The notes beneath the pieces were generated by a model that saw only the letters and a list, made by a program, of their open reading frames with translations, had not been told where the DNA came from and ran no database searches. This document shows positions 47,720 to 64,000 of a DNA stretch of 64,000 nt, piece by piece. Every line of letters begins with the position of its first letter. Positions within the stretch are counted from its first letter, which is position 1. Source of the stretch: Micrococcales bacterium (GTDB lineage: Bacteria > Actinomycetota > Actinomycetes > Actinomycetales > Dermatophilaceae). The stretch spans positions 62,001-126,000 of the forward strand of contig JAJTBD010000009.1 in the NCBI GenBank assembly GCA_021287075.1, written 5' to 3'. The position numbers and the translations under genes are program-made.

Positions 47720-48651
47720 AGCCCCGCCCTCCCCAGCGCTGCGGATGGTGGGCTCGCCGAACGACCGAACCAGCGACCCGCGTTCCGGCTCCGGCCGTCT
47801 GACGCGGTCTCGGATGCGGGCTGAATGGCTCGGTAGGCAGAGCGCACGGTCGTGGTTGTCTCGCGATCACCCAGACCCGCCGACTGTGCCGCAGCACCCA
47901 AGGCATCGAGCGCGTCGGCGGGCGAGACGCCGTTCTCGGCGAGGCGACAGGCAGCCCAGAACAGGCCCCGGTTCCGCTCGCCCTCACCCCGCCCGGCGAC
48001 CCACGCAGCCAACCGCTCAGATTCCATATCCATCGAGCCGCTGCTGGGACGTGGTGGGGCGACGGGGCGCGGGTCGAGAAAGTCCCGCAGACGGGCCGCC
48101 TCCACCGCGCCGACCGAGTGCGCGGCGATGTCCGCGACCTCGTAGAGCTTCACATTGCCGTCGATGATTCGCCGGGATGGCGGGGCAATGATGTAGCCGC
48201 CGTCGCCCCGGAAATCGACACCCGCAGCGGCTGCCTGCCACGAACGCTGCTCGCTGCCTGGTGTCGCCGGGAAGTACACGTGCGCGCCACCGGTGGGCGT
48301 GCGCACCAGCAGACCCGCGCCATCGACGAGTCCCGCGTCGGTGGCGCGCTGGTACGCCGCGCGGCCGTCGTGGGGGCCGTGGACATCGACATCGACGACG
48401 ACAACGCCGGATGGAGCGCCGGTCGGGATGCCGATGTTCGCGTTCGGTGTGCGCGACCACCACGCGGCAACCTGTTCCGGGTCGCTGCTCGCGTCGAGGA
48501 ACCCACGGCGGGTCAGCGGACGTTTCCCCTCGACGACGCACGGGAACACGGGCACGCCAGCCGCCGCGAGGCTCCGCGCAGCCAAGGTCAGGCGTGGGGA
48601 GCGATCCACGCGGATGAGCGCCGCCAGGACATCGAATGGCTGGGGCATCAC
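47716..48651 (-). CDS. Bifunctional DNA primase/polymerase (Prim-Pol)
   Basis: A 311-residue protein of the archaeo-eukaryotic primase superfamily. The Prim-Pol core is visible: AGVPVFPCVVEGKRPL, IGIPTGAPSGVVVVDVDVH (catalytic DxD), then TPTGGAHVYFPA and GVDFRGDGGYIIAPPS. A helical C-terminal part with RNRGLFWAACRLAENG follows. It would prime replication of the element after excision or transfer. No fused helicase domain is present, unlike the long plasmid versions. Confidence 0.88.
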   Translation of the reverse strand: MMPQPFDVLAALIRVDRSPRLTLAARSLAAAGVPVFPCVVEGKRPLTRRGFLDASSDPEQVAAWWSRTPNANIGIPTGAPSGVVVVDVDVHGPHDGRAAYQRATDAGLVDGAGLLVRTPTGGAHVYFPATPGSEQRSWQAAAAGVDFRGDGGYIIAPPSRRIIDGNVKLYEVADIAAHSVGAVEAARLRDFLDPRPVAPPRPSSGSMDMESERLAAWVAGRGEGERNRGLFWAACRLAENGVSPADALDALGAAAQSAGLGDRETTTTVRSAYRAIQPASETASDGRSRNAGRWFGRSASPPSAALGRAGL

Positions 48652-49721
48652 AGCCCCCGCCCTGCCAGCACCGGCGCAGCACGCGGAAGATCGGTCTCCA
48701 TCGCAGGCGCTGCCGTGCGGGAGGTGCGCGGACTGGGAGTGTCGCGTTCAAGGCCGGGCGGAGTGCCGTCGCCGACCTGGAGCGTGTCGAGCTGGTCGAG
48801 GATGGCCAGCGCGGTCTTCCGCACCCGTTCACCGGTGGCCTGCACCACCTGGACGGGCTCTTGGCCGTCCACGCGGGCGGCCCAGGTCGAGACGTACGGG
48901 ATCGTGTACCCGGCGGTGTCCATGCCGTGCGCGGCACCGATCATCAGCGCGACGGATTCGGCTTCGACCTCGCGGATGCCGCGATGCTGCCGCGCTTCCT
49001 CGTCGTCGGGATCGTGCATCACCACGTGTGCCAGCTCATGGGCGAGGGTCTTGACCTGCGCGGCAGGGTCCATGTTCTCCCGCACCGCTACCGCCCGCGC
49101 CTCGTAGTCGGTCATGCCGTTCGCGCCGGAGATCATCCCCTCGTGCGGCACTCGCAGTACCTCGAACCCTGCGCCGCGAATCTGCCCGGCCAGCCCGTCC
49201 CACAGCCCCGAGGGTGCTTCACCTTCCAGCAGCGTCGGAGCGGGGGGAACTGGCAGCGGTTCGCCGTCGGTCTGCGAGGCATCCCACACGTAGGCCGGTC
49301 GCGCTCCGACCATCCGCGAGCGCACGACCTCGTTGACCTTGTGCTTCTCGCGCGGCCCCAAGCGACGCCAGGAGTTCGGATCGGCAGGATCGGACGAGGC
49401 GAACCGGCCCGTCACGGGCGCGAAGATCATGTAGCCCGGCTGGCCCTTCATCACCTGCCGCCCGAGCCCCTGCCACTGCCGGTATCCGGCGACCAGGGTC
49501 GGGAAGGGTTCGGGCACGCGACCGGCCTCGAACGCGGCCTCGTGCTGCACCCAGATCAGCATCGTGTTGTTGAACGAGCGCGACCGGAACCGTGCCGCGA
49601 AGGCCAGCGCCTGCCGCCAGTCGTCACCCGAGACCAGCGACTCGACCGCGCCGGTCAGCTTCTCGTGCAGCTCGTCGAGCTTCGCCTCTCGCGCCGCGCG
49701 GGCGTCCTCGTTCGATGCCAT
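48648..49721 (-). CDS. ArdC-like antirestriction/ssDNA-binding protein with metallopeptidase motif
   Basis: A 357-residue protein. The N-terminal half is ArdC-like (DUF1738): KLDELHEKLTGAVESLVSGDDW, SFNNTMLIWVQHEAAF and YRQWQGLGRQVMKGQPGYMIF. The C-terminal half has a zinc-peptidase motif HELAHVVMH with a downstream glutamate helix (REVEAESVALMIG). ArdC proteins protect incoming single-stranded DNA from restriction. As the first gene of the transfer operon it would be expressed early in a recipient. The ATG at 49721 starts ASNEDARAAREAK. Confidence 0.85.
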   Translation of the reverse strand: MASNEDARAAREAKLDELHEKLTGAVESLVSGDDWRQALAFAARFRSRSFNNTMLIWVQHEAAFEAGRVPEPFPTLVAGYRQWQGLGRQVMKGQPGYMIFAPVTGRFASSDPADPNSWRRLGPREKHKVNEVVRSRMVGARPAYVWDASQTDGEPLPVPPAPTLLEGEAPSGLWDGLAGQIRGAGFEVLRVPHEGMISGANGMTDYEARAVAVRENMDPAAQVKTLAHELAHVVMHDPDDEEARQHRGIREVEAESVALMIGAAHGMDTAGYTIPYVSTWAARVDGQEPVQVVQATGERVRKTALAILDQLDTLQVGDGTPPGLERDTPSPRTSRTAAPAMETDLPRAAPVLAGRGL

Positions 49722-49865
49722 GCTCCGGCCTCCTCTTCGGCGGGCCGCGCCAAGGTTGCGCGCGGCGGTACACCTGGCAGGTAGGCGCGAACACCCGCGC
49801 CCGGATCGTGAGCTGGACATCGTTCACCTCCTTGAGGCAGCCCGAGCCGAGACCGGAACCGAACA

Positions 49866-53552: not shown

Positions 53553-56500
53553 GTGACAGAAGCGACGACCGACGCGACATTGACGCTCGCAACGCTGCGT
53601 GCGGGCCAACGCCTCCGTGGCCTGGTGCCCGGGCAGACGGTCACCCTGATCGCCATCGACCCCATCGACACCGAGCTGTTCGAGGTCTTCTACCGCGACG
53701 ACTCCGGCCGCAGCGGCGCACGCGCGATCACCGACGCCGACGCGGCACGCTTCGAGATCGCGGGCGACTTCGACTCCGCTCCCGCCTACGACGCCGACCC
53801 CGACGAGTTCCGACTCGCCGCCGAGGCGCTGCGGATCAAGTACGCAGCGCTGTACGACCCGATGGTCGCGGTCAACAGCTCAGACGTTGACCCCCTGCCG
53901 CACCAGATTCGCGCGGTCTACGAGGAACTGCTGCCGCGCATCCCGCTGCGGTTCCTGCTGGCCGACGACCCCGGCGCGGGCAAGACCATCATGGCCGGGC
54001 TGTACCTGAAGGAGCTGATCCTGCGCTCGGACTGCGAGCGCGCGATCATCGTCGCGCCCGGCGGGCTCGTTGAACAGTGGCGCGAGGAACTGAGCCAGAA
54101 GTTCGACCTGCGCTTCGAAATCTTCAGCCGCCAGATGATCGATGACGCCCAGGGCCGCAACGTCTTCGCCGAGCACCCGTTCCTGATCGCCCGCATGGAC
54201 CAGCTCTCCCGCAGCGAAGACCTGACCGAGCAGCTCAGTGAGGTCACCTGGGATGTTGCCGTCGTTGACGAGGCCCACCGCATGTCCGCCCACTACTCGT
54301 CCTGGGCGGGCGAAGTCGATGAGACCAAGCGATTCAAACTCGGACGCCTGCTGTCGGAGACCGCGCACAACTTCCTGCTGATGACCGCGACCCCACACGC
54401 GGGCAAGGAAGAGGACTTCCAGCTATTCATGTCGCTACTGGATCGCGACCGCTTCGAGGGCCAGTACCGGCAAGGCGTGCACCGCACCGACACCGACGGC
54501 CTGATGCGCCGCATGGTGAAGGAAGACCTGCTCACCTTCGAGGGCAAGCCCCTGTTCCCCGAACGCAAGGCCTACACCGTCGAGTACGAGCTGAGCCCGG
54601 CCGAGCGAGACCTCTACGAACAGGTCACCGACTACGTCCGCACCGAGATGGGACGCGCCGAGCGGATCGCCCAGGCCGGGGACAAGAAGCGCGGCAACAA
54701 CGTCGGGTTCGCCCTCACCGTGCTGCAACGCCGCCTCGCCTCCAGCCCCGAAGCGATCCTGCGATCCCTGGAACGACGCCAGCAGCGCCTCGACACAAAA
54801 CTGCGTGACATGCAGCGCATCACCGACGACGCACGCTTCAGCACCTCCCTCTCGACCCACATCGACGAATGGACCACCGGCAAGACCACCCTCGACTTCG
54901 GAAGCGACGCGCTGCCCGCGTTCTCGGTCGATGACTTCGAGGACTTCGACGAGGAAACGACCGACCAGGAACGCGCCCAGTTCGAGGAACAAGCGGACCA
55001 GGTTGTCGATCTCGCCACGGCCGCGCAGACAATCCCCGAGCTGCGGGCCGAGATCGCGATCCTCGAAGACCTCATCAAAGTAGCCCGGCGCGTCCGGCTG
55101 CAAGACGATGACAAGAAGTGGGTGCAGCTGCGCACCATCCTCGACGAACAGCTCCTGACCCACGACGGCTCCGGCGAGGCTCGCAAGATCATCATCTTCA
55201 CCGAGCACCGCGACACCCTCGACTACCTGCAAGCCAAGATCACCGCCCAGTTCGGCCGCGCCGATTCGGTCATCACCATCCACGGCGGCACCCGACGCGA
55301 AGACCGCAAGCTCGCCCGCGAACGCTTCACCCACAACCCCGACACCGTGGTCCTGCTCGCCACGGACGCCGCCGGGGAAGGTCTGAACCTTCAACGCGCG
55401 CACCTGATGGTGAACTACGACCTGCCCTGGAACCCGAACCGCATCGAGCAGCGCTTCGGCCGCATCCACCGCATCGGCCAGCGCGAGGTCTGCCACCTGT
55501 GGAACATGGTCGCCAGAGACACCCGCGAGGGCGACGTGTTCACCCGGCTGCTGGCGAAGATCGACCAGATGTCGATCGCCTACAACGGCAACCTGTTCAA
55601 CGTGCTCGGCGACGCCGACGCCTTCCAAGAGCGGTCGCTGCGTGACCTGCTGATCGAGGCAATCCGCTACGGCGACCAGCCCCAGGTCAAGGCCAAGCTC
55701 GACCGGATCATCGACGCCGGCGTCTCCCACGGCCTCGACGAGATGCTCGCCGAGCGCGCGCTCCACCCCGAGATGTTCTCCGCCCTCAACCTCGACGAGG
55801 TGCGGGCACGGATGGAGAAGGCCCGCGAACGACGCCTCCAGCCCGGCTACATCGCTGCCTTCTTCCTCCCCGCGCTCACACGGCTCGGCGGGCGCATCCG
55901 CAAGCGAGAGAACGGACGCTACGAGATCACCCGCGTCCCGGCCCGCGTCATCGACACCGCGCGTCGCCTCAATCGGTGGGCACCCGTCGCTGAGCAGTAC
56001 GAGCGCATCACTTTCGAACTCTCACGCATGCACCCCGACGGGCTCGCCGACGCCGCCCTCATCGCACCGGGCCACCCGCTGCTGCACGCCGTGATCGAGG
56101 CAACCATCGACGACCTCGGCCCCACCCTCAAGCAAGGCACGGTGCTGGTCGACCGGCGCACCAAGCAGACCGACGCGCCGATGCTGATGTTCAGCGTCGA
56201 GCAGCGCATCGAGAATACGGCTGCCGATGCCGACACGGTTTCTCATCACTTCGACTACCCGCTCCTCGAACAAGACGGCACCGTCACAGTTTCCGCTGCA
56301 CCCCCGTACCTCGACTATGACCGACCGGACTCGACTGAGACCGAAGCCGTGGCTGAGATCGCGGGCGGCGACTGGGCGCGGCAGAACCACGAGAAGCTCG
56401 TGCGTGCCTGGGCCTACCGCGAGGGGCTCCAGCCCCGGATGGACGAGATCAAGACCCGCCTCGACATCGAGACCGCGCGGACCCGAGCGCAGGTGAAGGA

Positions 56501-57155
56501 TCGCCTGCTGGCCGAGATCAACCACTGGGATCGAGAGCACAACCGCCTCGAAGCCCTCGAACGAGGAGGCACCGTCGGCCGGCTCCGCGCCGAGACCGCG
56601 CTCGTACGTGCCCGGCAGCTCGATGAACGCCTGAGCCACCGGCTCGAACAGCTCGACGAGGCCACCAACCTTGTCGCTGTACCCGCCGTCATCCGCGGCG
56701 CCGCGCTCGTCATTCCGAGCGCTCTCCTCGTGACCGATGCCGAGCCTGAAGCGCAGACCTTCGCACGCCAGACCGAAGAAGTCGAGCGTCGGGCAGTCGG
56801 TGCGGTGCTCGCCGCCGAGCGAGCACTCGGACGCGAACCTGTCGAGATGCCGCGCAATAACCCCGGCTACGACATCCAGTCCACCGACCAGAGCGGCTTC
56901 GTCCACTACATCGAGGTCAAGGGCCGCATCGAGGGCTCCGACACCTTCACCATCACCACCAACGAGATCACGTTCGCCCAGACCCAAGGCGACCGGCACC
57001 GGCTTGCACTGGTCGAGGTCTCGACCAACGGTGCCGCCAACGACCAATTGCGCTACGTGAGCGACGCCTTCACCCACCTTGAGCCATCCGCGACCACCCG
57101 TTCCTACAACGAGGTCTGGCGCGACTACTGGGAGCGCGGAGGACCACCGCGATGA
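53553..57155 (+). CDS. SNF2-family helicase with C-terminal DUF3883 nuclease-like domain (DrmD-like)
   Basis: A 1200-residue SF2 ATPase. An N-terminal small barrel (AGQRLRGLVPGQTVTLIAI) precedes the motor: Walker A DDPGAGKT (138-145), DEAH at 239-242, MTATPHAGKEED, and the C-terminal lobe with ATDAAGEGLNLQ (near 605) and NRIEQRFGRIHRIGQ. Residues about 1060-1180 form DUF3883 with a PD-(D/E)XK-like set: D1107 in GYDIQS and E1121-x-K1123 in YIEVKGR. This matches DrmD-type helicases of DISARM. It should translocate on DNA and may also bind or cut it. It starts at GTG 53553 after GGAAGGAGG and overlaps the methylase start by four bases. Confidence 0.9.
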   Translation: MTEATTDATLTLATLRAGQRLRGLVPGQTVTLIAIDPIDTELFEVFYRDDSGRSGARAITDADAARFEIAGDFDSAPAYDADPDEFRLAAEALRIKYAALYDPMVAVNSSDVDPLPHQIRAVYEELLPRIPLRFLLADDPGAGKTIMAGLYLKELILRSDCERAIIVAPGGLVEQWREELSQKFDLRFEIFSRQMIDDAQGRNVFAEHPFLIARMDQLSRSEDLTEQLSEVTWDVAVVDEAHRMSAHYSSWAGEVDETKRFKLGRLLSETAHNFLLMTATPHAGKEEDFQLFMSLLDRDRFEGQYRQGVHRTDTDGLMRRMVKEDLLTFEGKPLFPERKAYTVEYELSPAERDLYEQVTDYVRTEMGRAERIAQAGDKKRGNNVGFALTVLQRRLASSPEAILRSLERRQQRLDTKLRDMQRITDDARFSTSLSTHIDEWTTGKTTLDFGSDALPAFSVDDFEDFDEETTDQERAQFEEQADQVVDLATAAQTIPELRAEIAILEDLIKVARRVRLQDDDKKWVQLRTILDEQLLTHDGSGEARKIIIFTEHRDTLDYLQAKITAQFGRADSVITIHGGTRREDRKLARERFTHNPDTVVLLATDAAGEGLNLQRAHLMVNYDLPWNPNRIEQRFGRIHRIGQREVCHLWNMVARDTREGDVFTRLLAKIDQMSIAYNGNLFNVLGDADAFQERSLRDLLIEAIRYGDQPQVKAKLDRIIDAGVSHGLDEMLAERALHPEMFSALNLDEVRARMEKARERRLQPGYIAAFFLPALTRLGGRIRKRENGRYEITRVPARVIDTARRLNRWAPVAEQYERITFELSRMHPDGLADAALIAPGHPLLHAVIEATIDDLGPTLKQGTVLVDRRTKQTDAPMLMFSVEQRIENTAADADTVSHHFDYPLLEQDGTVTVSAAPPYLDYDRPDSTETEAVAEIAGGDWARQNHEKLVRAWAYREGLQPRMDEIKTRLDIETARTRAQVKDRLLAEINHWDREHNRLEALERGGTVGRLRAETALVRARQLDERLSHRLEQLDEATNLVAVPAVIRGAALVIPSALLVTDAEPEAQTFARQTEEVERRAVGAVLAAERALGREPVEMPRNNPGYDIQSTDQSGFVHYIEVKGRIEGSDTFTITTNEITFAQTQGDRHRLALVEVSTNGAANDQLRYVSDAFTHLEPSATTRSYNEVWRDYWERGGPPR

Positions 57156-59995
57156 CCCACCCCACCGACAACAACCAGCCCAATGCCAGCGAGAGAAGCC
57201 CCGTGACCACCGCACCCAAGAAGAAGCTCATCGAAGTCTCGCTGCCGCTCGAAGCAATCAACGCAGAGGCTTCGCGTGAGAAGTCGATCCGACATGGACA
57301 CCCCTCGACGCTGCACCTGTACTGGGCACGCCGACCACTCGCTGCCGCGCGGGCCGTGCTTTTCGCGCAGTTGGTTGACGACCCGTCGTCCAGGCCGGAC
57401 GAGTTCCCTACGGTCGAATCACAGGACGCAGAGCGAGCACGCCTCCATGCGTTGATCGAACGACTCGTCGTGTGGGAGAACAGCAACGACGAGACCCTCC
57501 TGCGCCAAGTCAGGGAAGAGATTCGCAAGAGCAACCAGGGCGAGTTACCCGCCGTCGTGGACCCCTTCGCCGGTGGCGGGGCTATCCCTCTGGAGGCCCA
57601 GAGGCTCGGGCTTGGAGCACACGCCAGCGACCTCAACCCGCTCGCTGTCCTTATCAACAAGGCGCTCATCGAGATACCACCCAAGTTTGCCGGTCTCCCG
57701 CCGGTGTTCCCAGGAATCGCTGAGACGCGCAACGGTTGGAGCCACGCCGAAGGACTTGCCGAAGACGTCCGCAACTATGGCGAATGGATGCGCGACCAAG
57801 CGCGCCAACGGATCGGTCACCATTACCCGCAGGTCAAGGCCGCAGACGGCACTAGGCGCACAGTCATCGCCTGGGTCTGGGCACGTACAGTCAAGAGCCC
57901 CAACCCTGCCAACCCCATCGAGGTGCCTCTCGTGCGGTCTTGGTGGCTAAGCAAAAAGAAGGGCAACGAAGCCTGGGTTCACGCCGAGGTTGTCGACGGA
58001 CAAGTCCGCTACGAGGTCCGCAACGACAACGCCGGCCCCACAGGAGACGAGGACGGCACCGTAAGCCGACGAGGCGCCGTAGCCATTGATGATGGCACGC
58101 CAATTGACCTCAAGTACGTCCGCGCTGAAGCGCGTGAGGGGCGCATGGGCGCCCATCTGATAGCGATCGTCGCAGAGGGCGACCGTGGTCGGCTCTACCT
58201 CACTCCACCCATGGAACACCAAGAGGCTGCAAGTGTCCCGCGCCCAGAATCGGCCCCTATGGGCTCGTTGCCGCCGCACGGTCTGCAGCCTGCGAACCCG
58301 CAGACTGTTCGTATCTATGGGTTCAACGAGTGGTCTGACCTGTTCACTAATAGGCAACTCACTGCCCTCACCACCCTTAGCGACATGGTCGGAGAGGTAC
58401 GCGAGAGGGCGCTTCAAGATGCCCTCGCGGCAGGGCGTGACCACGGGGTGAGGCTTGAAGACGGGGGCGTGGGTGCCAAGGCGTACGCCGATGCCATCGC
58501 CACATATATTGGCCTCGCCGTCAGCAGGATGACCGACTACAACTCGTCGTTCACAGGCTGGAATGTTACCCGTGAGGGCACGCGCGGGGTCTTCGCACGG
58601 CAGGCGATACCGATGGTTTGGGACTACGTCGAGGTAAACCCACTGTCCGACTCATCCGGAAACTTCGTCGGGCAGACGGACTGGATCACTCGGGTTCTGC
58701 GACGCCTCCCTGGCGCGCGCGAAGGAATCGCGTTGCAGCAAAACGCGATGGCTCGCGAGTATTCAGGGCTCGTTGTATCGACTGATCCGCCGTACTACGA
58801 CAACATCGGCTATTCGGACCTGTCTGACTACTTCTACGTTTGGCTCCGGCGTTCCCTGCAGGACGTGCAGTCCAGAACGGTCGGGACGATGCTCACCCCG
58901 AAAAGCGAGGAACTGGTCGCCAACCCCCATCGGCACGGCGGCAAGAGCGGCGCGGAAGAGAGGTTCATCCAAGGGTTCAACTCGGTCTTCCACCGGATCC
59001 GAGAAGACGCGAACCAAGTGGTACCCATGACCGTCTACTACGCCTACAAACAACAGGACACCAGAGACACCGGAACATCCTCGACCGGCTGGCACACTCT
59101 CCTCGACGGACTCATCGAAGGAGGCTGGGAGATCACCGCCACGTGGCCCCTGCGGAGCGAACGCGGCGGCCGGATGCTCAGTGTCGGCACCAATGCTCTC
59201 GCATCCTCGATCGTCCTTGCCTGCCGGCCACGGCCGACAAGCGCACCGGCGACGACACGGCGCGCCTTCGTTGCGGCGCTAAAGACCGAACTCCCTGAAG
59301 CGCTACGAACACTTATCCAGGGCTCGATCGCGCCGGTTGACCTTGCGCAGGCAGCGATCGGTCCAGGCATCGCCGTCTTCTCCCGTTACTCACGAGTGAG
59401 GGAGGCCGACGGGTCTGATATGAGCGTGAAGGATGCACTCCTCCTCATCAACTCGACTCTTGATGAGGTGATCGGCGAGCAGGAGTCTGACTTTGATCCC
59501 GACACTCGGTTCGCCGTGAAGTGGTATCGCCAGTACGGGTGGACACAGGAGAACTCGGGCATCGCCGATCAGCTCGCGCGTTCATCCGATACCTCGATTG
59601 GCGCGATGGAACGAGGCGGCATCTTCGAGGCGAAGGGCGGCAAGGCGCGCTTGTTGCCGCCTTCCCGATTGGAGGGAGAGTGGGATGCAGTAGCCGACGA
59701 GCGCGTCAGCGTCTGGGAGGCGACTATGCGTCTGGCCGCGCTGATGGCGAAGGATGGCGCCGACAAGGTGGCAGAGCTTCTGCCATCGGTGCAGACGCGT
59801 GTGAACTTGGATGCGGTGAAGGAGTTGGGCTTCCTGCTGTTCCATGAGGCCGAGAAGAAGAAGGATACGAAGGACGCGATCCTGTTCAACGGTCTGGTGA
59901 GCGCCTGGGGTGATGTGAATGAGCAGGCGCGTAAGTACGCCTCGACTCCGCGCTCTTCGCAGCAGGAGTTCGACTTCGACGAGGACGAGGATTAA
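57152..59995 (+). CDS. DUF1156 DNA methylase (COG1743-like)
   Basis: A 947-residue amino-methyltransferase. DUF1156 at the start (KKKLIEVSLPLEAINAEASREKSIRHGHPSTLHLYWARRPLAAAR); SAM-binding motif I DPFAGGGAIPLEAQRLG (137-153) with ASDLNPLAVLINK; catalytic motif IV DPPYYDN (545-551). This motif order and DPPY suggest adenine-N6 or cytosine-N4 methylation. The family's zinc-ribbon segment appears degraded: ARTVKSPNPANPIEVPL (245-261) has serine 249 and asparagine 254 where relatives, as I remember them, carry cysteines. It probably marks host DNA as self for the helicase/nuclease partners. It is coupled to the helicase gene and followed after three bases by the nuclease gene. Confidence 0.88.
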   Translation: MTHPTDNNQPNASERSPVTTAPKKKLIEVSLPLEAINAEASREKSIRHGHPSTLHLYWARRPLAAARAVLFAQLVDDPSSRPDEFPTVESQDAERARLHALIERLVVWENSNDETLLRQVREEIRKSNQGELPAVVDPFAGGGAIPLEAQRLGLGAHASDLNPLAVLINKALIEIPPKFAGLPPVFPGIAETRNGWSHAEGLAEDVRNYGEWMRDQARQRIGHHYPQVKAADGTRRTVIAWVWARTVKSPNPANPIEVPLVRSWWLSKKKGNEAWVHAEVVDGQVRYEVRNDNAGPTGDEDGTVSRRGAVAIDDGTPIDLKYVRAEAREGRMGAHLIAIVAEGDRGRLYLTPPMEHQEAASVPRPESAPMGSLPPHGLQPANPQTVRIYGFNEWSDLFTNRQLTALTTLSDMVGEVRERALQDALAAGRDHGVRLEDGGVGAKAYADAIATYIGLAVSRMTDYNSSFTGWNVTREGTRGVFARQAIPMVWDYVEVNPLSDSSGNFVGQTDWITRVLRRLPGAREGIALQQNAMAREYSGLVVSTDPPYYDNIGYSDLSDYFYVWLRRSLQDVQSRTVGTMLTPKSEELVANPHRHGGKSGAEERFIQGFNSVFHRIREDANQVVPMTVYYAYKQQDTRDTGTSSTGWHTLLDGLIEGGWEITATWPLRSERGGRMLSVGTNALASSIVLACRPRPTSAPATTRRAFVAALKTELPEALRTLIQGSIAPVDLAQAAIGPGIAVFSRYSRVREADGSDMSVKDALLLINSTLDEVIGEQESDFDPDTRFAVKWYRQYGWTQENSGIADQLARSSDTSIGAMERGGIFEAKGGKARLLPPSRLEGEWDAVADERVSVWEATMRLAALMAKDGADKVAELLPSVQTRVNLDAVKELGFLLFHEAEKKKDTKDAILFNGLVSAWGDVNEQARKYASTPRSSQQEFDFDEDED

Positions 59996-59998
59996 GTC

Positions 59999-61117
59999 AT
60001 GCCCGGAAAGCGAGATCAAGCCCAGAGCCGCGGCGCAGCCGCGCGCCGCTCTGGCGCAGACCTGACTCCGTTCCGGGCCATCGCAGAGTCGGTCAGCGCC
60101 GGTGGTGGTGAGCTCGTCGATCAGGTGTCGGCTCTGATTGAGCAGGCGCAGGCGTTCGCGGCCACTCAGGTGGACGCGACGCTCACTCTCCGGAACTGGT
60201 ACATCGGCCGCTTGATCGACGTGGCCGTGCTGCGCGAAGGACGCGCCGGGCACGACCAGGAACTTGTTGCGTCGCTGGCGCAACAACTGACCTCGCGGTA
60301 CGGCCGAGGCTACGACCGGACCAACCTGTACCGGATGGTGCGGTTCTCCCAGCAGTTCACCGAGCCCGAACTTGTTGCGTCACTGGCGCAACAAGTTAGC
60401 TGGACCCACTTCCGCGAGCTGCTCCCGCTCGCAACCGACGACGCGCGAGCCTTCTACGTGAAGGAGATCATCGACCGCCACCTCAGCGTCCGTGACCTGC
60501 GCTACGCCATCTCCCGCAAGGCGTTTGAGCGCCGAGAGATTGCCGACTCCCAGATTCCCAAGGGATCGGCGGTCCCGCTGGATGCCTTCCGCGACCCGGT
60601 GCTGTTGGACATGCTGGGGCTGGCCGACACCTTCTTGGAGCGCGACCTCGAAGCGGCTCTGCGGCACGACATGGAGGCGTTCCTGTTGGAGGTTGGTCGC
60701 GGGTGGGCGTTCGTCGAACGTCAGAAGCGGATGACGTTCGATGGCGATGACTACTACCTCGACCTGCTGTTCTACTCCCGCCCGCTGCGTCGGCTGATCG
60801 CGGTGGAGTTGAAGGTTGGGAAGTTCAAGCCGAGCTACCAGGGGCAGATGAACTTCTACCTGAAGTGGCTGGACCGGCACGAACGCCAGGCAGACGAGAA
60901 CCCGCCCATCGGCCTCATCCTGTGTACCGAGGCGAGCCGTGACCAGATCGAGCTGCTCGAACTGCACAAGGACGGGATCGTGGTCGCGGAGTATTGGACG
61001 ACGCTCCCGCCGAAGGCGGAGCTCCAGGCCCGTATCCAGACGGTCTACCGGGAGGCGCAGGAGCGGATCGCCCGCAGGCAGCTAACCGCAGCGGCGGAGG
61101 AAGACATTGATGAGTAG
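59999..61117 (+). CDS. DUF1016 PD-(D/E)XK nuclease (YhcG-like)
   Basis: A 372-residue protein. The N-terminal DUF1016 part has RNWYIGRLI, YGRGYDRTNLYRMVRFSQQF and SWTHFRELLPL; the C-terminal nuclease core has YLDLLFYSRPL and LIAVELKVGKFKPSYQGQMNFYL, supplying the D and ExK catalytic residues. It is predicted to cut DNA. Its gene contains two copies of a 27-bp hairpin sequence (60260-60286, 60368-60394), both encoding ELVASLAQQ. It follows the methylase by three bases and precedes the DUF499 ATPase, so it is an integral member of the module. Confidence 0.9.
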   Translation: MPGKRDQAQSRGAAARRSGADLTPFRAIAESVSAGGGELVDQVSALIEQAQAFAATQVDATLTLRNWYIGRLIDVAVLREGRAGHDQELVASLAQQLTSRYGRGYDRTNLYRMVRFSQQFTEPELVASLAQQVSWTHFRELLPLATDDARAFYVKEIIDRHLSVRDLRYAISRKAFERREIADSQIPKGSAVPLDAFRDPVLLDMLGLADTFLERDLEAALRHDMEAFLLEVGRGWAFVERQKRMTFDGDDYYLDLLFYSRPLRRLIAVELKVGKFKPSYQGQMNFYLKWLDRHERQADENPPIGLILCTEASRDQIELLELHKDGIVVAEYWTTLPPKAELQARIQTVYREAQERIARRQLTAAAEEDIDE

Positions 61118-61177: not shown

Positions 61178-64000
61178 ATGGCGATGAACAACCGAGATCG
61201 AGTGGGCAAGGCGTTCGACCTGCTCTCCGAAGGGCTCCTGGACGAGGTCGATGAGGTGATGACGCGGGCCTACAAGACTGCTGACTGGCCGGCCGCGTGG
61301 GCGAAGGAGGATGCCCAGCGCCGGGGCGGGACGCTGCGCACGCTGACCAAGCACGACGTGCAGGTCCAGCTCCGCGCGATCACCGAGCAGGGCTACCACT
61401 TCAAGGACGTGCTCTCCCGTGCGCAGCAAGGCTTCGCATCCGAACTGCGCGAGACCCGGAACCTGTGGGCGCACAACGAACCCTTCAGCTCCGACGACGC
61501 ATCGCGTGCCCTGGACACGATTGAGCGGCTGCTGCACGCGGTCGGTGCGGTCGATTCCGCCGAGGACGTGCGCAAGCTGCGCGTCGATCTGCAGCGGACG
61601 GTGTTCGAGGATCAGACCCGCAAGCAGGTCAAGCGTACGAAGGTGTCGCTCGAACCTGGCTCCGGTCTGCGTCCGTGGCGTGAGGTGATCCGTCCCCACG
61701 ATGACGTGGCGCGCGGCGCGTTCACCGCGTCGGAGTTCGCGGCCGACCTGCACTTGGTTCACACGGGGCAGGCAACCAGCCCCGAGTACGGCGATCCGGT
61801 CGAGTTCTTCACCCGCACCTACCTCACCGAGGGCTTGCGTGACCTGCTGTCACGCGCACTGCGCCGCCTGAACGGCGAAGCCGGCGCCAGCCCGGTGGTG
61901 AACCTTCAAACCAACTTCGGTGGCGGGAAGACCCACTCGATGCTGGCCCTCTATCACCTGTTCAGCGGTACTCCGGTCAAGGACTTCCCGCAGGAGCTTC
62001 AGGAACTCATCGCCGCGAACGGCAACACCGACCTCGGCTCACTCGATGTCCGACGGGTCGCCCTCGTCGGCACCTACTTGAAGGCTGGATCGCCGATCGT
62101 CAAGGACGATGGCACCGAGGTGCGCACGCTGTGGGGTGAACTCGCCTGGCAGCTCGGCGGGCGTGAAGCCTATGACCTGATCGCCGAGGACGATCGCGCG
62201 GGCACCAACCCCGGTGAAGCGTTGCGCACTCTGATCGTGCGCTACTCGCCGTCGCTGATCCTGATCGACGAGTGGGTGGCCTACGCCCGCCAGCTCGTGA
62301 CGGACAAGGAACTCCCGTCCGGTTCGTTCGAGACCCAGTTCACCTTCGCGCAGTCCCTGACCGAGATCGTGCGTTCGGTGCCGGGCGTGATGCTCGTGGT
62401 CTCCATCCCGGCATCCGACACTGGCACCGAGGGACGAGGCAGCGACATCGAGATTGGCGGCGCGAACGGGCAGCTTGCGCTGGAGCGCCTCCAGAACGTG
62501 ATCCGTCGCGTCGCGGACCAGTGGCGGCCGTCGAGCAAGGACGAGTCGTTCGAGATCGTCCGCCGACGGTTGTTCCAGGCGCCGAACGCCGACGGACTCA
62601 CGACCATCTCGGCTGTGGCGCGCAGTTTCACGAACCTGTACCGCAACAACACCGCGCTGTTCCCGCGCGATGCGGCATCGCCGAACGACGACTACGAGAA
62701 GCGCATCCGCGCTTCCTACCCGCTGCACCCCGAACTGCTGGACCGGTTGTATGAGGACTGGTCGACGCTCGAACGGTTCCAGCGCACCCGTGGCGTTCTG
62801 AAGCTCGTCTCCTCGATCGTGCACGAGCTGTGGGCATCCAACGACGCCTCGCCACTGATCCTGCCCGGCAACGTGCCACTGGATGCGACGACCGTGAACA
62901 CGGACCTGACGCAGTACCTCGAAGACCAGTGGAAGCCGATCATCGACTCCGACATCGACGGCCCAGGCTCGACCGCGCAGCAGATCGACCTCGACCGCCC
63001 CAACCTCGGCCAGCGGTTCGTCACCCAGCGCATCGCCCGCACGATCTTCATGGGCGCGGCACCTCGGATCAAGAGCACCCGCAAGGGGCTCGACAAGCAG
63101 TACCTCTGGCTCGGCACCGCGGTTCCCGGCGACACCCTCGGGAACTTCGGCAGCGCCGTCGAGCTGCTTGCCCAGCGTTCGACCTACTTCTACGAAGAGC
63201 AGGGCCACTACTGGTTCGACACCCAGCCCTCAGTCACGAAGACGGCGAACGACTACGCCGAACGGCTCCGGGAGGATGTCGAGACCGTCTGGAACGAGAT
63301 CACCCGCCGGCTTCAAGGAGAGGAGCGCGTGCGCGGCGTGTTCGACCGGGTCCACATCGCCCCGTCGTCGTCCGCCGACATCCCTGACCTCGAAGACACG
63401 CGCTTGGTGATCGCGCACCCGCGGCACGCCCGTCGCAAGCAGGACGGTGCTGACTCTGCCGCGCATGCGTGGGTCCGAGAAGCTATCGAGTGCAAGGGCG
63501 CGAGCCAGCGCATCCACCGCAACACGCTGATCTTCCTGCTCGCCGACAAGAGCGAACTGGAGAGCCTCGAAGCCGCCACCCGCAGCTACCTCGGTTGGAA
63601 GCGCGTCCAGGCCACCAGCGACAGCCTCAACCTGTCGGCGCAACAGCGCAAGCAGACCGACGACTGGGTATCCCGGCTCGATCAGACCGTCTCCGACCGC
63701 ATCCGCGACACCTTCGTCTGGGCGGTCTACCCCGAGCAGTTCGACCCGACCAAGCCGTTCGAGCTTGTCGCAGACAGGGTGCCAGATTCCGGCGGACGAT
63801 CCCTGGCGGAGCGCGTCAGCGCCAAACTCGGCCGTGAGGATCAGCTCGTCACCGACTTCGGGGCACCGATCCTCGGAGCCACCCTGCACCAAGAGCTCGG
63901 CGCGCTCTGGCGCGACGCCGGCGAGATCACCGTCGGCGAGTTGTGGGGCTACTTCACCCGCTACACCTACCTGCCCCGCCTCGTCCGACGCGAAGTGCTC
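61178..64000 (+). CDS. DUF499 ATPase with N-terminal Swt1-type HEPN domain (3' end outside window)
   Basis: At least 941 residues, open to the right edge. Residues 5-125 are a HEPN domain of the Swt1 kind (DRVGKAFDLLSEGLLDEV) with the RNase motif R94-N-L-W-A-H99 (Rx4H), followed by EPFSSDDASRALDTIERLL. The AAA-type ATPase domain follows: Walker A NFGGGKTHSM (K251) and Walker B SLILIDEW (D364, E365). ATG 61178 is preceded by AGGAG. DUF499 (COG1483) proteins accompany DUF1156 methylases in putative defence loci. The HEPN domain suggests that ATP hydrolysis may control RNA cleavage on infection. Sixty bases without a gene separate it from the nuclease gene. Confidence 0.88.
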   Translation, partial: MAMNNRDRVGKAFDLLSEGLLDEVDEVMTRAYKTADWPAAWAKEDAQRRGGTLRTLTKHDVQVQLRAITEQGYHFKDVLSRAQQGFASELRETRNLWAHNEPFSSDDASRALDTIERLLHAVGAVDSAEDVRKLRVDLQRTVFEDQTRKQVKRTKVSLEPGSGLRPWREVIRPHDDVARGAFTASEFAADLHLVHTGQATSPEYGDPVEFFTRTYLTEGLRDLLSRALRRLNGEAGASPVVNLQTNFGGGKTHSMLALYHLFSGTPVKDFPQELQELIAANGNTDLGSLDVRRVALVGTYLKAGSPIVKDDGTEVRTLWGELAWQLGGREAYDLIAEDDRAGTNPGEALRTLIVRYSPSLILIDEWVAYARQLVTDKELPSGSFETQFTFAQSLTEIVRSVPGVMLVVSIPASDTGTEGRGSDIEIGGANGQLALERLQNVIRRVADQWRPSSKDESFEIVRRRLFQAPNADGLTTISAVARSFTNLYRNNTALFPRDAASPNDDYEKRIRASYPLHPELLDRLYEDWSTLERFQRTRGVLKLVSSIVHELWASNDASPLILPGNVPLDATTVNTDLTQYLEDQWKPIIDSDIDGPGSTAQQIDLDRPNLGQRFVTQRIARTIFMGAAPRIKSTRKGLDKQYLWLGTAVPGDTLGNFGSAVELLAQRSTYFYEEQGHYWFDTQPSVTKTANDYAERLREDVETVWNEITRRLQGEERVRGVFDRVHIAPSSSADIPDLEDTRLVIAHPRHARRKQDGADSAAHAWVREAIECKGASQRIHRNTLIFLLADKSELESLEAATRSYLGWKRVQATSDSLNLSAQQRKQTDDWVSRLDQTVSDRIRDTFVWAVYPEQFDPTKPFELVADRVPDSGGRSLAERVSAKLGREDQLVTDFGAPILGATLHQELGALWRDAGEITVGELWGYFTRYTYLPRLVRREVL

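Follow-up and report, generated by a model that had tools for sequence, protein, structure and literature searches.

A Swt1-like HEPN domain with an intact Rx4H motif in the DUF499 ATPase of a predicted Hma / Type-1 BREX-related phage defence locus

Introduction

The fusion of a Swt1-like HEPN domain to a DUF499 ATPase (Ava_2192-type) was described in 2013 and predicted to be active; the HEPN domain of eukaryotic Swt1 was described in the same work as inactive (Anantharaman et al., 2013, PMC3710099). A 2026 survey that describes a Type-1 BREX-related (BR) class reports a HEPN-fused ATPase in 1370 of 2446 taxa and proposes a suicide-fallback role for it (PMC12839542). The core system is named Hma by PADLOC (Payne et al., 2021, PMC8565338). 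In the literature searched, we found no experiment on the ATPase component, HmaC, that addressed its RNase activity, a target RNA, dimer formation or growth arrest.

Here we analyze an actinobacterial locus located at the downstream end of a 64,000-nucleotide stretch of DNA (the window). The locus shares with the Ava_2192-type an N-terminal Swt1-like HEPN domain with an Rx4H motif on a DUF499 AAA+ ATPase, and an operon with an SNF2 helicase-DUF3883 nuclease and restriction-modification components; nothing essential differs, and the present locus adds a YhcG gene between methylase and ATPase. The locus shares with Type-1 BR systems the ATPase, a DUF1156 N6-methylase with an internal target-recognition insert, and the helicase-nuclease, but contains YhcG/DUF1016, of which the main text of the survey makes no mention (PMC12839542). 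All three PADLOC models, HmaA, HmaB and HmaC, match the locus strongly, with the HEPN domain located outside the aligned part of the HmaC model. The ATPase has a predicted fold like that of BrxC of BREX (9zll); however, unlike in BREX, no match to PglZ (PF08665) is found anywhere in the genome, and BREX proper is ruled out on this ground. From these sequence comparisons, the locus is an Hma / "Type-1 BREX-related" phage defence system, with its anti-phage role predicted. Because both the fusion and the suicide-fallback idea are in the literature (PMC3710099, PMC12839542), it is not a new system. New here are two observations: a probably repeated loss of the catalytic arginine in intact systems while the HEPN domain stays under purifying selection, and a divergence between otherwise near-identical loci that lies mainly in the target-recognition region of HmaB.

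Results

HmaC is encoded in a predicted defence operon

The operon runs on the plus strand in the order HmaA, HmaB, YhcG nuclease, HEPN-HmaC, followed by Shedu. HmaA (53553..57155; PADLOC E 0; Pfam SNF2, Helicase_C and NOV_C) is an SNF2 helicase with a C-terminal NOV_C (PD-(D/E)XK) nuclease, the nuclease residues of which, D1107, E1121 and K1123, are invariant (53/53). HmaB (57152..59995; PADLOC E 0) is a DUF1156 DNA adenine methyltransferase with a DPPY motif that is present in 66 of 66 sequences. The slot between HmaB and HmaC is occupied by a YhcG/DUF1016 PDDEXK nuclease (59999..61117; Pfam YhcG_C E 1.4e-44, DUF1016_N E 1.6e-32; PADLOC PDC-S02). The locus thus has the helicase, methylase and DUF499 ATPase of Hma / Type-1 BR systems in a single operon, and the PD-(D/E)XK nuclease at the C-terminus of its helicase is intact.

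The HmaC gene, identified from its open reading frame, Pfam matches to HEPN_Swt1 and DUF499, and PADLOC, starts at the ATG at 61178 and occupies 61178..64000 (plus strand) of the window, which truncates it: the window holds 941 of 1133 residues, the remainder is at L004:3001-3579, and the true end is G000:C29:126579. The initial annotation was right about the start of the gene and its motif, with the correction that the gene continues past the window. The protein comprises a HEPN_Swt1 domain (PF18731; residues 11-123, 61208..61546; 107.9 bits against a curated cut-off of 27.5, E 4.8e-31), a flexible linker to the ATPase (residues 152-158, 61631..61651; pLDDT <50 in the full-length model), a Walker A motif, FGGGKTHS (61916..61939), and the Pfam DUF499 region (residues 291-935). 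The Walker A lysine, K251 (codon 61928-61930), lies downstream of the HEPN domain, as the initial annotation had read it, and K251 and the Walker B pair D364-E365 are each kept in 110 of 110 sequences of the ATPase alignment. The PADLOC HmaC model matches with an E of 1.4e-233 from residue 164 on. The genome contains one HEPN_Swt1 match and one DUF499 match, both in HmaC. Scored on the 941 residues inside the window, HmaC reaches 156 bits against a cut-off of 1200 for NCBIfam NF042962 (anti-phage DUF499), and by this score is a relative of that subfamily, not a member.

The Rx4H motif is distinguished from chance by position and conservation

Three Rx4H patterns occur in HmaC (at residues 54, 94 and 742), against 1.6 expected from composition in 1133 residues, and the bare pattern is therefore worth little. 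The pattern singled out by the initial annotation is R94-N-L-W-A-H99 (61457..61474, plus strand), with the R94 codon at 61457-61459 and the H99 codon at 61472-61474, both inside ELRETRNLWAHNEP; the codons and the Pfam match agree with its placement in a Swt1-like helical domain. We assessed conservation in 99 HEPN-bearing relatives, and in a set thinned to 60 at <70% identity, with a mean pairwise HEPN identity of ~41%. R94 and H99 are present together in 95/99 relatives and in 57/60 after thinning; singly, R94 is present in 96/99, N95 in 93/99 and H99 in 98/99, and the residue following R94 is N, D or H in 98/99. R54/H59, a chance Rx4H in the same segment that serves as an internal control, has both residues kept in 8/99, and R742/H747, outside the HEPN domain, in 45/99. 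HEPN domains are expected to conserve an acidic residue close to the active site, in helix 2; by conservation counts alone, acidic residues D60 (98/99) and E89 (92/99) are retained. The relatives cover ~12 phyla (Actinomycetota, Chloroflexota, Cyanobacteriota, Planctomycetota, Pseudomonadota, Deinococcota, Nitrospirota, Chlorobiota, Bacteroidota and Gemmatimonadota among them), and relatives on plasmids are annotated 'Swt1 family HEPN domain-containing protein'. The comparison of 95/99 with 8/99 excludes a chance motif. We conclude that R94/H99 stands above chance because of its position and its conservation, not because of the pattern.

The predicted fold is a HEPN four-helix bundle

An AlphaFold2 model of the HEPN segment, built on 79 aligned relatives, is a helical bundle with a pLDDT of 95 and with predicted helices at residues 5-32, 37-49, (61-75), 81-98, 105-121 and 125-157. 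The model has the four-helix bundle of HEPN domains, in which two alpha-hairpins are packed together and an insert separates helix 2 from helix 3. R94-x4-H99 lies at the end of helix 3 (81-98), with the polar residue N95 following R94 and with H99 opening the next loop, and an Rx4-6H at the end of helix 3 is the published position of the HEPN active site (PMC3710099).

Foldseek, used by itself, returned nothing significant with the HEPN model as query (best E 0.18). A second structural aligner placed the C-terminal domain of yeast Swt1 first (4pqz; Z 7.0, 125 residues, rmsd 3.8), followed by several HepT/HEPN toxins and Csm6 at Z 5-6; for small helical bundles, a Z of ~7 falls in the range about which the aligner itself warns. 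Helical bundles often give middling Z values, and for this reason the structural matches support, but do not prove, a HEPN fold. Taken together with the Pfam match, they make the predicted HEPN assignment safe. Sequence searches of the PDB with the HEPN segment and with the whole protein found no relative; the matches returned were weak, covered part of the query and were to unrelated molecules. In the full-length HmaC model (pLDDT 86, pTM 0.58) the HEPN domain is a separate module joined by a low-confidence linker, and the best PDB match of that model is BrxC 9zll (E 1.7e-4, prob 1.00). The initial annotation had made its reading depend on a HEPN fold and on conservation of R94 and H99 in relatives; the predicted bundle, with its Swt1-led matches, and the counts for the pair bear out both.

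The catalytic arginine is missing from three relatives, and the domain stays constrained between two of them

In comparisons with seven close relatives, the HEPN domain has a dN/dS of 0.02-0.06 for six of them, indicating strong purifying selection. The intact pair is missing in four relatives: L009 and L080 (R to A), L061 (R to G) and L077 (H to R). The HmaA and HmaB genes are full-length in L061 and L080; the flank of L009 is too short to judge them. In the ATPase tree L009 and L080 cluster together and apart from L061, so the arginine was probably lost at least twice. Between L009 and L080, dN/dS computed from dN and dS is ~0.07 for the HEPN domain and ~0.11 for the ATPase, such that the domain is constrained without its arginine. 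Two sequences are thin evidence, but the comparison suggests that either the domain has a second role or catalysis dispenses with the arginine. RNase activity may therefore not be the whole role of the domain.

One way to account for these data is a conserved non-catalytic role of the HmaC HEPN domain, for example in control of ATPase assembly or in RNA sensing, with the RNase a switchable add-on, such that suicide activity can be shed through one arginine while the domain is retained; we put this forward tentatively, as a possibility that we hold to be somewhat doubtful. Another alternative, that the HEPN domain is mainly non-enzymatic, acting in dimerisation or in RNA or partner binding to regulate the ATPase, with a catalytic motif that is a leftover or only sometimes used, would explain the absence of R94 from at least two lineages with complete HmaA and HmaB, the constraint in L009 and L080 as strong as on the ATPase, and the described inactivity of eukaryotic Swt1; however, retention of both catalytic residues in 57 of 60 thinned relatives at a mean HEPN identity of ~41% is hard to explain without catalysis, and we consider this alternative unlikely.

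In the same tree, the HEPN-bearing proteins sampled cluster, with strong support, separately from those without HEPN; because the branches are long, this does not prove a single origin of the fusion. Because DUF499 systems without HEPN exist, the domain is not needed for core function.

Near-identical loci differ in the center of HmaB

The loci of Brevibacterium sp. CS2, Tessaracoccus sp. SD287 and Actinomyces oricola are 84-91% identical in DNA to the present locus over most of ~52-65.9 kb, a comparison limited to the extent of each relative's contig. The only clear break in DNA similarity is at ~57.4-58.8 kb (57450-58770), within HmaB. HmaA is 94-98% identical overall, and HmaC, over the portion compared, shows mostly 90-100% identity per 50 residues, except for a variable stretch near the C-terminus, whereas HmaB falls to 34-68% across much of its center (replaced region ~residues 100-650). 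Methylases of these systems carry an internal target-recognition insert, and the HmaB-centered divergence fits that insert (PMC12839542). The segment 57450-58770 is a probable exchange of the target-recognition region of the methylase. Because the exchange is confined to the center of HmaB, HEPN-HmaC is probably machinery that is neutral to DNA specificity.

Accessory slots vary among relatives

The slot between HmaB and HmaC contains YhcG in L035, L036, L039, L040, L041 and L044 and a GmrSD-type endonuclease in L056, L060 and L067 (by Pfam) and in L070 and L075 (by N-terminal similarity), and is empty in most relatives. YhcG is absent from most HEPN-bearing relatives, and we rejected it as an essential partner or antitoxin. 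In L110, and similarly in L109, the slot between HmaA and HmaB holds an AAA ATPase and, after it, a small protein containing CxxC; the AAA ATPase pair in this slot resembles Septu.

Several further observations concern the surroundings. The Shedu gene SduA lies directly downstream of HmaC (L004:3588-4979), and does so in L036 and L040 too, as in an Hma-YhcG-Shedu cassette that travels. The four-gene row at L004:4979-8536 (a PRA-isomerase-like gene, an unknown gene, PRTase-CE and a gene for a 381-aa protein that matches CARF weakly) is possibly a separate uncharacterised defence module. An ArdC-N / M78 peptidase-like, anti-restriction-type gene lies near the operon on the minus strand (48648-49820). 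The same HEPN segment also matches inside open frames of ~2100-2170 aa (G008:C12:58057-58476 and G038:C1:1040086-1040496), which may correspond to the giant helicase/Vsr HEPN proteins that PMC3710099 describes.

Discussion

The initial annotation proposed an RNase-bearing HEPN domain fused to the DUF499 ATPase of a DNA-modification defence locus, with growth arrest as a fallback. The anatomy in this proposal is right (a HEPN domain of the Swt1-like family whose Rx4H is intact, the DUF499 fusion, and an operon with methylase and helicase), the function is plausible, and neither is new; the proposal is thus partly supported.

Our preferred explanation, toward which we lean with modest confidence on the basis of sequence comparison and structure prediction, is that HEPN-HmaC is a fallback RNase in an Hma / Type-1 BR system. 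HmaB would mark self DNA, with its internal target-recognition region determining the sites, and HmaC would assemble on DNA and, with HmaA, sense and degrade unmarked DNA. Oligomerisation of HmaC would pair two HEPN domains to form an active, metal-independent RNase, which would cut host and/or phage RNA and stop growth once DNA restriction is insufficient; these RNase and arrest steps are modeled on other members of the family. The HEPN domain may also be structural or regulatory, independently of the catalytic arginine. The DNase residues are invariant in 53/53 HmaA sequences, whereas the HEPN arginine is kept in 96/99 and was lost independently, a contrast that fits a primary DNase and an accessory RNase.

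In a different order of roles, the HEPN domain would be the primary effector and cut phage transcripts in place beside restricted DNA rather than as a suicide fallback. The short linker to a DNA-scanning ATPase would place the domain at phage DNA under transcription, but HEPN-less DUF499 systems exist and the invariant helicase-nuclease already supplies an effector, and we regard this order of roles as quite improbable. That the HEPN domain is the toxin of a toxin-antitoxin pair, restrained by HmaB or the YhcG protein, is very improbable: pairs of a HEPN toxin and a nucleotidyltransferase are well known, and such toxins are present among the structural matches, but the neighboring genes scanned include no nucleotidyltransferase, and YhcG, missing from most HEPN-bearing relatives, cannot be a general antitoxin.

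The locus is a clean, intact actinobacterial example of a restriction-like system whose ATPase has a probable built-in RNase. The natural variants without the arginine provide a ready comparison for growth arrest caused by the HEPN domain, and the near-identical loci with differing methylase target regions provide a ready comparison for a link between the HEPN domain and DNA specificity.
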